Assembly: GCA_938010045.1 (NCBI GenBank)
Contig: CALLFZ010000021.1
Span: 1 to 64,000 of the forward strand
Length of the DNA stretch: 64,000 bases
Direction: 5' to 3'
From: an uncultured bacterium
Lineage (GTDB): Bacteria; Verrucomicrobiota; Kiritimatiellia; PWTM01
Below the pieces are notes generated by a model, which worked only from the letters and a program-made list of their open reading frames with translations, was not told the origin of the DNA and made no database searches. Of the stretch, positions 52,870 to 64,000 are shown piece by piece. The position numbers were made by a program, and so were the translations under genes. Numbering within the stretch: the stretch's first letter is position 1; every line of letters begins with the position of its first letter.

Positions 52870-53315
52870 GTGCCTGTCCCCATGACACCCCATGACACCT
52901 AGGCAGGTGCGACCGCCGCGGTTGGCTTCCCGCCCATGGGGACAGGCACGTGGGGACAGGCACGTGGCAAATGGGGACAGGCACGTGGCAACCCGATAGC
53001 CTTTGAGCTCATGCGACCGGTGATGTGCCTGTCCCCGACCTGCGCCCAGAGAGGCGAAGAGGTGCCTGTCCCCATGACGCCATGACGCCATGACGGCTCC
53101 ATGAGGATTCCGCGTCGGGTGAGGCGAAGCGACTATGGCCGGGCACCCGGCCGACACGCCGTGCCTGCCCCCATCGCCTGCCCCCATCGCCTGTCCCCAT
53201 CGCGCTCCCCATCGCCGGGGCACCAGAACCCGGGAGGTGCCTGGCCCCAACTGCAATCCCAGGTTGTGTGCCCCCGGGGAGGCATCAAAGCTGGCAGTCA
53301 AAGCTGCCTGTCCCC
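52870..53315. repeat. Dispersed-repeat island 2 (GTGCCTGTCCCC family)
   Basis: Exact copies of GTGCCTGTCCCC occur at 52870-52881, 53025-53036 and 53062-53073. Reverse copies GGGGACAGGCAC lie at 52938-52949, 52952-52963 and 52973-52984, each followed by GTGG. Degenerate copies are at 53161-53172, 53188-53198, 53237-53248 and 53304-53315. The triplet at 52938-52984 is a short tandem. The stretch after 53062 (repeat, then GACTCC/GGCTCCATG and GTGAGGCGA) also resembles the stretch after 37286 in island 1. Confidence 0.82.
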
Positions 53316-59997: not shown

Positions 59998-60059
59998 TCA
60001 TTTTGTGCAAAAAAAAGATCATTTTGTGCAACGACAGTAACCGGCCGCGGTCCTATTGT
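59998..60059 (+). promoter_or_regulatory. Paired operator-like direct repeats abutting a promoter
   Basis: TCATTTTGTGCAA occurs twice as perfect direct repeats, at 59998-60010 and 60019-60031, 21 bp (two helical turns) apart. The second copy ends at the first base of a possible -35, ACGACA (60031-60036), which is followed by a 17-bp spacer and TATTGT (60054-60059). AT-rich repeats are very rare in this GC-rich window. The layout resembles binding sites of an activator touching RNA polymerase, as in AraC-type control. No regulator gene lies next to it. Confidence 0.6.
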
Positions 60060-60148
60060 GCTGTCGCTCGTACGACGGCGCACCGGTTGGAGGTGTCCGA
60101 CGAGCCCGGGCGCCCGGCGTGTGGCGAGCGAGCGGAACGGGTTGCGGC

Positions 60149-60526
60149 ATGACGGCGAATGAGCGCATCCGTGCGGCGCTGGAGCGCCGGCCGGTGGATC
60201 GAATACCGGTGGATCTCTGGTGCACACCGGAGATCGGCGCCGTGCTTCGCTCGTACTGTGGGGTGACGACCGACCTGGACCTGTTCCGGGCGCTCGGGCT
60301 CGACAACATCGTCTGGGTGTTCGTGGACGACCGTTCGCGGGAAGGCGAACGGGCGGGCGCCCAGTCGGGCGGGGGGGCGGAGTCCGGCGGGTCGCGCACG
60401 ATGTGGGGCGTGCCGCTCCGCGACGTGCAGGCCGGACCCGCCCACTACGCCGAATTCGGTAATCCGCCTCGCGATGATCGAAAGCGCGTGGGAGGGGCGG
60501 CCATGAGTGGGGGAGTCGTTGGATGA
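60149..60526 (+). pseudogene. Truncated uroporphyrinogen-decarboxylase-family gene
   Basis: The first about 105 codons read like the N-terminus of a UroD-family methyltransferase/decarboxylase protein: MTANERIRAALERRPVDRIP, VDLWCTPEIGAVLR, then WGVPLRDVQAGPAHYAEFGNPP. Full-length members are about 330-380 residues. Here the frame turns into RDDRKRVGGAAMSGGVVG and stops after 125 residues, with the next gene starting at the stop (ATGA). The C-terminal two thirds, including the rest of the barrel, are missing, so it is most likely a deletion remnant. PVC UroD-like proteins are often encoded in sugar-degradation clusters and are not haem enzymes. Confidence 0.7.
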
Positions 60527-61368
60527 TGATCGGTCGCGACCGCCGTAGTGGGCGCCTGGGGGCCCTTGCGGCCGGCGTCGGCGCGCTCCTCGTGACACTG
60601 TCCGTTTCTGCCCAGACTCCGGCGGCGCGGCGCGAGGTGGTGTGGCGGGCACCGCACTACATCGTGACCTGGGGAGACGGCGATCTATGGGTGCAGTTGT
60701 TACATGAGGGCGTAGCGGACGGCCCTCCATTTCGGGCGTTCTACGCGGGTTTCTGGGCTCGCGAAGCGGGGTATGCCGTCCGGCGCCAGCTCGCGAGCGC
60801 AACGATCGAAACCGCGAAGCCGCCCATCCGCGCCGCCTCCTCGGAGGTTCGGCTCCGAATCCGACTGGAGGACGAGCGCAAATCGCGGGTGGAGGCCGAT
60901 GCGCGGTTTCTCTCGAACTCGGTGGTGATCGAGGCGCGGTACCGCATGTCCGCGCGGGAATCCGTCGGCATCGGCCGCGCATCGGTCTACTTCGGACGCC
61001 CTCCGCACGTCCCCGCGCGTCCGGTCTCGACCATCGCGAACCTTGCGGAGCTCTGCCGGGACTTGGCCGTGGATCTCGTGCTGGAGGACGGATCGCGGAT
61101 CACTCTGCCCTTCGCGGACGACGTGGCGAATCAGATTCGCTGCACGCAGTGGACCGTGCGAGGTCTGTGGACGAACTGGGTCGTGCGGGGGACCACGGAC
61201 CGGCGCGACGCATGGTTTCGGTACTGGCAATACAGCGGCACGAAGCCAGTGGAGGGGTTCGGGTTTCTCTACCTCCGGGAAGGCGCGAACGCCGAGGGGC
61301 GGGCGACGATCGAGTGGCTCCCAGCGGTGAGTTCAAGTGTGGGCGTTGCGCCGTCGTCGCGCCAGTGA
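60523..61368 (+). CDS. Secreted protein of unknown function, tandem paralogue A
   Basis: A 281-residue protein with a signal peptide (LGALAAGVGALLVTLSVSAQ-TP) and a beta-rich body. It is clearly related to the next gene. Shared blocks, in order, are GPPFR-AFYAGFWA-EAGY, IETAKPPIRA, RIRLEDERKSRVE, VIEARYRMS, QWTVRGLWTNWVVRG, and FRYWQYSGTKPVEGFGFLYL. No catalytic motif is recognised. A conserved Lys/Arg-rich ERKSR block and several Trp residues suggest a carbohydrate-facing beta-sandwich, but this is a guess. GGGGGAG lies about 8 nt before the ATG, which overlaps the stop of the UroD fragment. Confidence 0.75.
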   Translation: MMIGRDRRSGRLGALAAGVGALLVTLSVSAQTPAARREVVWRAPHYIVTWGDGDLWVQLLHEGVADGPPFRAFYAGFWAREAGYAVRRQLASATIETAKPPIRAASSEVRLRIRLEDERKSRVEADARFLSNSVVIEARYRMSARESVGIGRASVYFGRPPHVPARPVSTIANLAELCRDLAVDLVLEDGSRITLPFADDVANQIRCTQWTVRGLWTNWVVRGTTDRRDAWFRYWQYSGTKPVEGFGFLYLREGANAEGRATIEWLPAVSSSVGVAPSSRQ

Positions 61369-61438: not shown

Positions 61439-62350
61439 ATGTGGTCCGGATCTTGTTGGACGGGTCGGCAGCAAGGCGGCGGCGTCGCGATCCGATGGGC
61501 TGCCGTGGCACTGCCCCTCCTGCTACGGGCGGCTGCAGGCCGCCCCGAGGAGGAGGCCGAGGTCGGGACCAGCGCCGACCTCGTGGCTCGCGGAACCCTG
61601 GTGGACGAAAGTCAGAGCCACCAAGCGTGGTGGGCAGACCACTCGCTGTTCATCCAGCTTCGCCGCGACGGAGCTGCCGAGGGGCCTCCATTCCGGATCT
61701 CCGGCGGCAATTTCTGGGCCACCGAGCGCGGATACCGACTGCGCCGTGGGATTACCAGCTCGGCCATCGAGACCGCCAAGCCCCCGGCGCGCGCCACCCC
61801 CGGCGGGGGCCGTCGAATTCAGATCCGCCTCGAGAATGAAAGAAAATCTCGCATGGAGTTCGAGTTACAGATGAGCCCCACCGGCTCCGTGATCGAGGCG
61901 CGCTATCGTCCTTCGCCGAACGACAGCGGCGCCACCGGCCGTGCCGGTCTACGGTTTCCCGCCGTCCGCGGCGTACCACGTGCCCGCCGCGAAGGGACGC
62001 AACCCAACTGGAGCGAGTTGTGCGCCGGTTTGGAGCTGGACATTGTCACCGAGTCCGGCGAGCGCCGCGTGTACGCCTTTGGCGACGAGGTCGAGCAGAT
62101 GCCGCCGTTCGTGGAATGGACGGTTCGTGGCCTGTGGAGTGTCTGGGAAGTTCGCGGGCGGATGGACACACGAGGCGAGGCGTTCCGCTACTGGCAGTAC
62201 TCGGGGACGCGTCCCGCCGAAGGCTTCGGTATCAGTTACTTGCATGATCGCCAGGCCGCGAACCGTCGTGTGTCGGTCGAGTGGGTGCGGCGCGGGGCGG
62301 TGTCAGGCGACGGCGCGGCAACGCCGGCATCCGGAGGACCCGCGCGATGA
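61439..62350 (+). CDS. Secreted protein of unknown function, tandem paralogue B
   Basis: A 303-residue paralogue of the preceding gene. It has a hydrophobic leader (VAIRWAAVALPLLLRAAAG) then the same blocks: GPPFR-ISGGNFWATERGY, IETAKPPARA, QIRLENERKSRME, VIEARYRPS, EWTVRGLWSVWEVRG, and FRYWQYSGTRPAEGFGISYL. The start at 61439 is set by a perfect AAGGAGG 8 nt upstream. Its stop overlaps the GH106-like gene (ATGA), so it is co-translated with a rhamnosidase-type enzyme, hinting at a role in the same polysaccharide breakdown. No known fold or activity. Confidence 0.75.
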   Translation: MWSGSCWTGRQQGGGVAIRWAAVALPLLLRAAAGRPEEEAEVGTSADLVARGTLVDESQSHQAWWADHSLFIQLRRDGAAEGPPFRISGGNFWATERGYRLRRGITSSAIETAKPPARATPGGGRRIQIRLENERKSRMEFELQMSPTGSVIEARYRPSPNDSGATGRAGLRFPAVRGVPRARREGTQPNWSELCAGLELDIVTESGERRVYAFGDEVEQMPPFVEWTVRGLWSVWEVRGRMDTRGEAFRYWQYSGTRPAEGFGISYLHDRQAANRRVSVEWVRRGAVSGDGAATPASGGPAR

Positions 62351-64000
62351 TACGGAGGAGCATACGAGGGCGCGAAATGAGGACGATGGTCTTGCTCTTG
62401 CTTCTGGTGGCCTACTGCGCCCAGGCTGCGGGGCGCCGGCCAACGCCGGAGACGGAATTCCGCTCGCCACCGGATGCGGCGCGGCCGCTGACGTGGTGGC
62501 ACTGGCTGAACGGCAACATCACGCGCGAGGGCATTCGCAAGGATCTCGAAGCGATGGCTCGGATCGGCCTTGGCGGCTGCTACCTGTTCAGTTGCGGCGG
62601 CCTTTGGCCGACCGGCGAGGTTCGGTTCTTGCAGCCGGAATGGCTCGATATGGTCCGCCACACGATCGCGGAGGCAGAGCGTCTCGGTCTGAAGTTCGGC
62701 GTGCATAATTGTGACGGCTTCTCGCAGGCGGGCGGTCCGTGGATCACGCCCGAGACTTCAATGAAGATCCTCGTGTGGACGGCGTCCGACGTCGTTGGAC
62801 CGGGCGAGCGGCAGATCGAATTGCCGCGCCCCGACATGCGCGAAGGGTTCTATCGCGACATCGCGGTCGTCGCATTTCCTCGTCCCGAGGGTTCCGATCT
62901 CAGCGGGGAACTCGGGGGAACCCTGCCAGCCGACGAGCTGACCGCGCTGGCCGATCGAGATCCCGCGACCCAGGCGGCATTTCCGGCGAGCGGCCGCGGG
63001 CATCGTATCGAATGGCGGTTTCCAACGCCGCGAGTGATCCGCTCGCTGCAGGCGTGGAACTGCGCGCCGCAGGTGTGGGAGTCGGACACACCCATCGTGC
63101 TGGAGGTTTCGACGGACGGCACGACCTTCCGGCCCGCGGGTGTCTTCACGTTCAACTGGGACTTCGGCTCGCCGCGCGAGCCGATCACCGTGGCGTTCGA
63201 TTGCGCGACCGCGGTCGTGGCCCGGCTCTCGTTCACCAATGAACGGCCGCTGCGGGTGGGCGAGCTCGTTCTCAGTGATGCCGCGCGTGTGCAGTTCGCC
63301 GAGGCAAAGGCGGCGCGATTGCAAAGCCGCGGGCATGGCGCCGAATCCCGACATTATCGCGCTTATCCCGGGCCCGATCCGACCCGCCCGCTGCCGGCCA
63401 CCCACGTTGTAAGTCCCGACGAAGTTGTGGAGCTGACGAATCGGATGTCGGCCGACGGCCGGCTGGTCTGGTCGCCCCCGGATGGCCGACGCTGGCGGGT
63501 GCTGCGGATCGGCTTTACCAGCAACGGCCACTATGTCTCACCGGCGACCCCCGAAGGCCGGGGACTGGAATGCGACAAACTGAACGGCGACATCGTCAGA
63601 TTTCACCTCGAACAGTACGTCGGACGGCTTCTGCGGCTGGCCGGTCCGGCCGCGGGACGCACGTTCATCGCTTTGGAGACGGACAGCTGGGAGTGCGGCA
63701 TACAGAACTGGACCGATGACCTTGACCGTCGCTTTCGTGCGGCGTGCGGCTATGACCTGACGAGCTTCTGGCCCGCGCTGCTCGAGGGCTGGGTCGTGGG
63801 GTCGGCCGACGAAACCGATCGCATGCTTTGGGACTGGCGGAGGTTTCTCGCCGATGAGCTCGACCGTAACTTTTTCGCGGTGGTATCGAAGTTCGCGACC
63901 GACCACGGTCTCACGTATGTCGCGGAGAGCACTGGCCGCCAACAATTCCTCTACAACGTGGGCTGGCACCGGCACAGCCACGTCCCGATGGGGGAATTCT
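62347..64000 (+). CDS. GH106-like alpha-L-rhamnosidase family glycosidase (C-terminus beyond window)
   Basis: 551 codons are visible; the gene runs off the right edge. A signal peptide (MRTMVLLLLLVAYCAQAAG) precedes the family opening FRSPPDAARPLTWWHWLNGNITREGIRKDLEAMARIGLGG, typical of GH106 and related enzymes that remove alpha-L-rhamnose from pectin-like or gellan-like glycans. Later blocks include LKFGVHNCDGFSQAGGPWI, a beta-sandwich insert, and FIALETDSWECGIQNWTDDLDRRFRAACGYDLTSFWPALLEG with acidic residues suited to catalysis. ATG 62347 has GGAGGA 8 nt upstream and overlaps the preceding stop. ATG 62377 is an alternative with a tighter signal peptide. Confidence 0.85.
   Translation, partial: MIRRSIRGREMRTMVLLLLLVAYCAQAAGRRPTPETEFRSPPDAARPLTWWHWLNGNITREGIRKDLEAMARIGLGGCYLFSCGGLWPTGEVRFLQPEWLDMVRHTIAEAERLGLKFGVHNCDGFSQAGGPWITPETSMKILVWTASDVVGPGERQIELPRPDMREGFYRDIAVVAFPRPEGSDLSGELGGTLPADELTALADRDPATQAAFPASGRGHRIEWRFPTPRVIRSLQAWNCAPQVWESDTPIVLEVSTDGTTFRPAGVFTFNWDFGSPREPITVAFDCATAVVARLSFTNERPLRVGELVLSDAARVQFAEAKAARLQSRGHGAESRHYRAYPGPDPTRPLPATHVVSPDEVVELTNRMSADGRLVWSPPDGRRWRVLRIGFTSNGHYVSPATPEGRGLECDKLNGDIVRFHLEQYVGRLLRLAGPAAGRTFIALETDSWECGIQNWTDDLDRRFRAACGYDLTSFWPALLEGWVVGSADETDRMLWDWRRFLADELDRNFFAVVSKFATDHGLTYVAESTGRQQFLYNVGWHRHSHVPMGEF

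Follow-up and report, generated by a model that had tools for sequence, protein, structure and literature searches.

The contig CALLFZ010000021.1 of an uncultured bacterium of the Kiritimatiellia (Verrucomicrobiota; GenBank assembly GCA_938010045.1) was analyzed over its positions 1 to 64,000 (herein referred to as the window). Close to the end of the window, a pair of direct repeats of the 13-bp word TCATTTTGTGCAA, with starts 21 bp apart, and an adjoining promoter precede a remnant of a URO-D/MtaA-like gene, two paralogous secreted-protein-like genes and a GH106 alpha-L-rhamnosidase gene (table 1). From the positions, uniqueness, conservation and spacing of this element, the phase of its -10 hexamer, its gene context and the clade membership of associated regulators, all of which were computed, we argue that it is probably the tandem operator of an L-rhamnose-responsive AraC-type activator, driving a rhamnosidase operon from position 60149 onward.

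Table 1. The putative operator, promoter and operon genes in the window
Feature	Position	Strand	Remark
Operator half-site 1, TCATTTTGTGCAA, constrained part TCA-N4-GTGCAA	59998..60010	+	Kept in G014 and by all four species within the genus
A-rich spacer AAAAAAGA separating the half-sites	60011..60018	.	Conserved in the genus; single-base difference in G002 and in G014
Operator half-site 2, TCATTTTGTGCAA, promoter-proximal	60019..60031	+	
Nominal -35 hexamer ACGACA, weak, nonconserved	60031..60036	+	Abuts half-site 2
-10 hexamer TATTGT, 35 bp past the half-site 2 start	60054..60059	+	A -10-like hexamer lies at the same offset across relatives
Conserved leader CGGCGCACCGGTTGGAGG...GCGCCCGG, following the promoter and preceding the first gene	60075..60120	+	No Rfam match
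URO-D/MtaA-like gene, N-terminal remnant (~125 codons)	60149..60526	+	Usual first gene after the site
Secreted-protein-like gene 1	60523..61368	+	No Pfam match; likely operon member
Secreted-protein-like gene 2, paralogous to gene 1	61439..62350	+	No Pfam match; likely operon member
GH106 alpha-L-rhamnosidase gene	62281..64000, continuing ~2.4 kb beyond the window end	+	Predicted to be the operator's main target

An earlier sequence-only reading of the window had noticed the two perfect copies and called them very unlikely by chance. Both copies are exactly where it placed them, and the whole genome (3,215,806 bp) contains no other exact copy of TCATTTTGTGCAA, the reversed control of the pattern giving 0 exact matches in the same sequence. 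The bare repeat is, however, only mildly improbable and not in itself compelling, because a first-order Markov model of the window's composition predicts ~0.2 exact 13-bp repeats with a separation of 14–40 bp in every 64 kb, and in this respect the earlier claim was overstated. For the AT-rich word, the expected number per genome is 0.007, a figure that applies to a word chosen post hoc. The evidence against chance is conservation, not the repeat itself.

Each of the four species of the genus has a single copy of the element, located upstream of the orthologous operon. In G001, all 34 bp of the element are identical and lie in the syntenic position, in a region that shares ~76% identity with the window and less in its noncoding flanks (44–81% in 36-base blocks). 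In the remaining two genus genomes, the element aligns as GTCAAAAAGTGCAAAAAAAAGATCATTTTGTGCAA (G003) and GACAGAATGTGCAAAAAAAATATCAATTTGTGCAA (G002), near-copies that precede the URO-D/GH106 operon, the contig of G003 ending before any GH106 gene. The T-run in the middle of copy 1 is replaced by AAAA in G003 and by GAAT in G002; GTGCAA is unchanged, and TCA of copy 1 is retained except for its outermost base in G002 (ACA: GACA). The alignment of the sister species hence places the constraint on two occurrences of (T)CA-N4-GTGCAA, the A-rich spacer and the 21-bp period and not on the T-run, whose variation suggests that the perfect identity of the two copies is partly accidental. Such a bipartite pattern would be expected of an AraC-type subunit with two helix-turn-helix motifs.

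Beyond the genus, the element recurs with a single mismatch in G014, which belongs to another family and has it directly upstream of a GH106 gene. A class-wide scan of 345 genomes allowing up to 3 mismatches (reversed control: 0) found looser copies flanked by a divergent araC gene and a URO-D-like gene (G208), before URO-D-like, GH78 and GH106 genes (G118) and before a GH106-like gene (G223). Random occurrence of the motif in coding DNA and poor conservation in relatives had both been named as grounds for abandoning a regulatory role; neither was found, and the site is kept in the four species and in G014. Across 84,980 genomes of all phyla, exact ATTTTGTGCA pairs are commonest at spacing 21 (38 of 72, with 13 at 20 bp, 15 at 22, 5 at 19, and 1 at 23). 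Part of the pairs at spacing 21 are tandem arrays, and an AraC gene adjoins 4/32 loci at this spacing versus 3/31 at other spacings; because of these arrays and the few AraC neighbors, the excess at spacing 21 is no proof of AraC binding outside the phylum.

The element can also be approached from the regulator. A search with the AraC protein of G208 gave matches in 71 genomes, and at 13 of the 30 best loci, the divergent araC promoter holds a tandem pair at spacing 21 with at least 18/24 matches. We built a sequence-only profile (R1) from 12 araC-adjacent sites in other genomes, excluding the window's genus and G014; its single match in the window genome is the site at 59998–60031 (E 1.9e-5), and it also recovered the G001, G003, G002 and G014 sites, a recovery that is not fully independent because the training sites were picked by their likeness to the window's motif. 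Gene context played no part in the choice of further R1 sites. URO-D, GH106, GH78 or aldolase genes lie downstream on the same strand at 21/30 strong nontraining sites versus 2/19 weak-hit controls (p 4e-5), and 8/12 nontraining, site-bearing genomes encode a clade AraC versus 16/334 in the background (p 2e-9, with counts read by hand from tables and related genomes being nonindependent). The sequence-only reading had also proposed looking for the motif near other carbohydrate genes of the same genome; here the scan gave no second site, the profile finding none in the window genome up to E 10, and one-mismatch 10-mers in a loose scan of that genome showed no excess over the reversed control.

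The promoter has the layout of a class II tandem AraC operator, with direct half-sites about two helical turns (21 bp) apart, the proximal one at the -35 and at a fixed distance from the -10, and an AraC-family gene linked to the sites in relatives. ACGACA and TATTGT are separated by 17 bp, and ACGACA shares one base with copy 2. The promoter touching copy 2 that was described earlier is indeed at these positions; the position of the -10 is conserved, whereas the -35 hexamer is not (ATGATT in G001). Over 21 sites, the match to a -10-like hexamer at +35 from half-site 2 averages 3.29/6, with no other offset tested exceeding 2.62, and at least 4/6 bases match at 12/21 sites, compared with at most 5 sites at any other offset. 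A weak, unconserved -35 lying against half-site 2 is consistent with an activator-dependent promoter. The idea of a tandem or dimeric activator placed beside RNA polymerase thus draws support from the occurrence of the module at AraC-clade promoters and from the fixed -10 spacing. In Escherichia coli, AraC at araI1-I2 (pBAD) likewise occupies direct half-sites 21 bp apart, with the proximal half beside the -35 and the -10 lying 37 bp beyond the I2 start. The corresponding distance here is 35 bp, with the half-site counted ~2–3 bp further in, whereas the half-site sequence, the sugar genes and the regulator differ.

L-rhamnose, a plant and algal sugar, is the consistent signal, because the sites precede rha catabolism operons as well as GH106 and GH78 rhamnosidases. 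In G063, the site precedes genes for RhaT, a URO-D-like protein, an arabinose-isomerase-like protein, a RhaD-like aldolase, RhaA and RhaB; in G093, it precedes RhaA, RhaT and aldolase genes with araC divergent; and in G049, it precedes RhaA. The RhaA and RhaT proteins at site-bearing operons pass the NCBIfam cut-offs. G002 has an exact half-site 138 bp upstream of its rhaA gene, and outside the class, in G371 and G460, the site is flanked by genes for a clade AraC and RhaA (the latter read from sequence). Judging from this gene context, the inducer is most likely L-rhamnose, and the earlier suggestion that the element would control the tandem secreted proteins and the GH106-like enzyme is supported by the rhamnose and rhamnosidase genes that follow the sites elsewhere. 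Two strong profile matches, at G118 C5:405541-405603 and G044 C155:18207, have no GH106, URO-D or rha genes downstream on the same strand; they are possible further targets.

Five AraC-type proteins are encoded in the window genome, and only that at C20:73091-74005 falls within the clade (tree, branch support 88/86) and has the clade's first recognition-helix signature, SY[ST]-x-x-R-x-x-F. It contains an AraC ligand-binding domain, and its gene is divergent from a class II aldolase gene most like RhaD-aldolase/dehydrogenase fusions, with an SSF symporter and a galactokinase-like GHMP kinase also among the neighbors. Its best NCBIfam match is AraC (71 bits, far short of the 208-bit equivalog cut-off), and it scores 37–58 bits with the E. 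coli RhaS/RhaR models, again far short of the cut-offs of 288–525 that would mark orthology. The sequence-only reading had proposed an AraC- or LacI-type regulator with linked sites, and linkage is indeed seen in relatives, where AraC genes adjoin the sites, but the candidate gene in the window genome is on another contig.

Besides the choice of training sites, several findings weigh against the proposed regulation. Both half-sites in the window's genus read TGTGCA, whereas the araC-adjacent sites mostly read TGTGCA and then TGTCCA. The window genome's own rha cluster (on C6, RhaA present) has no good site near rhaA. The promoter of the clade araC gene on C20 carries only a degenerate site (E 1.4 in 42 kb), and G014, whose genome is 93%-complete, has the near-identical site and no clade AraC, its two AraC-type proteins being of other kinds. 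Because of the last two findings, we hold the particular regulator less firmly than its type: that the operator is bound by an AraC-type protein appears very likely from the sequence comparisons, and the C20:73091-74005 protein is a good, if less secure, candidate for that role.

An AraC-type operator bound by a different paralogue, such as A20b, the neighbor on C20, or the C6 protein encoded near the rha cluster, would mean that the clade assignment is wrong for this genus. It would accommodate G014 more readily, and the C6 protein is encoded ~12 kb from rhaA in the window genome, with a C6-type AraC (best NCBIfam match RhaS) ~3.5 kb upstream of the G118 site. We consider this unlikely, however, in view of the tracking of the clade AraC by the site across genomes (subject to the nonindependence given above), the many clade araC genes that carry the site in their own promoter and the lack of the clade helix signature from the C6, A20b, C14 and C7 proteins. 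Binding by a factor from outside the AraC family, for instance a LacI-type repressor or a response regulator, is very improbable: a small dyad, TTTTG-N2-CAAAA, does span copy 1 and the A-rich spacer, but copy 2 lacks it and it has disappeared from G003 and G002, where the CA and GTGCAA positions are kept, and the 21-bp direct repeat has no 10–11-bp subrepeat, while homologous sites adjoin AraC genes. A LacI-family operator, as a conserved palindrome of ~20 bp, was rejected on the same loss of the copy 1 dyad; of the two regulator types proposed earlier, AraC is hence favored by the clade promoters, the -10 spacing and the rhamnose genes, and LacI is disfavored by the direct repeat and the unconserved dyad. 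That the repeat arose by chance, for which its modest improbability per 64 kb could be cited, or is a mobile or repeat element with no regulatory role is scarcely credible and is refuted by conservation, given a single syntenic copy per genome whose conservation extends over four species and further, the absence of any match to the reversed control pattern across 345 genomes and the nonrandom genes downstream of the sites.

For the AraC-type operator, we infer regulator binding, activation, rhamnose as the ligand, the operon extent and the regulator's identity from these comparisons. Two regulator subunits would occupy the two direct half-sites on the same face of the helix, two turns apart, each using both helix-turn-helix motifs of its AraC DNA-binding domain to touch TCA and GTGCAA. 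The proximal subunit, lying against a poor -35, would assist RNA polymerase at TATTGT in the manner of AraC at araI1-I2, and the activated operon would comprise the remnant URO-D-like gene, the two secreted proteins, the GH106 rhamnosidase and probably downstream sulfatases.

Known regulators offer a close parallel in layout. The AraC-family L-rhamnose regulators RhaR of Bacteroides, Bacillales and Enterococcus have direct-repeat motifs with 21-bp periodicity, rha regulators in several lineages also control rhamnoside-utilization genes, and the RhaR motif sequences are described as unique to each group (Rodionova et al. 2013, PMC3870299). The window operator resembles those of RhaR in its probable regulator family and in its 21-bp direct repeats. 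E. coli RhaS and RhaR, also AraC-family activators of rhamnose genes, bind inverted repeats of 17-bp half-sites, in contrast to the direct repeats here (PMC3870299). The Verrucomicrobia and the PVC group are absent from the text of that study (PMC3870299), and unlike in its RhaR lineages, the regulon described here recurrently includes a URO-D/MtaA-like gene. The switch is therefore of the same kind as the known AraC rhamnose regulators, in a lineage-specific form in a class of the PVC group; it is well supported and ordinary in kind, and the bacterial group is poorly studied. Comparative genomics here leads from a short repeat spotted by eye to a regulon. In a lineage whose control of rhamnoside use seems to have been little described, it supplies a site, a promoter and a candidate regulator open to testing, and it ties unannotated secreted proteins and the URO-D/MtaA-like gene to L-rhamnose.

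What is new in detail is that the regulon has a conserved URO-D/MtaA-like member and that this gene has decayed in the window genome and in G002. Gene context makes it well supported that this cobamide-methyltransferase-type gene is a conserved, often first, member of the rhamnose and rhamnoside operons of the class. It is intact in G001 and G003, carries a ~700-bp deletion in the window genome and is spread over several frames in G002 (contig C94, ~8.3–9.5 kb); in both genomes with the decayed gene, the operator and the GH106 gene persist. Demethylation of O-methylated rhamnose from plant or algal glycans is a doubtful guess at the function of its product; if true, the regulon would serve methyl-rhamnosides. 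The paralogous secreted-protein genes stand as a tandem of two before GH106 here and apparently as one in G001.

In the leader, the CGGCGCACCGGTTGGAGG and GCGCCCGG blocks are kept in the window genome (G000), G001 and G003 with small indels, which make it not obviously coding; a regulatory RNA was considered and dropped after an Rfam search of the leader gave nothing above chance. G000 contig C9:25561-25586 contains an inverted pair, TTTTGGGCAA / TTTTGTGCAA, inside a longer inverted repeat, GATTGCCCAAAAT...ATTGGGCAATC. Elsewhere in the window, at 52936–52991, TGGGGACAGGCACG(TGGCA) occurs in three near-tandem copies with spacings of 14 and 21 bp, possibly a transposon end or a repeat element.
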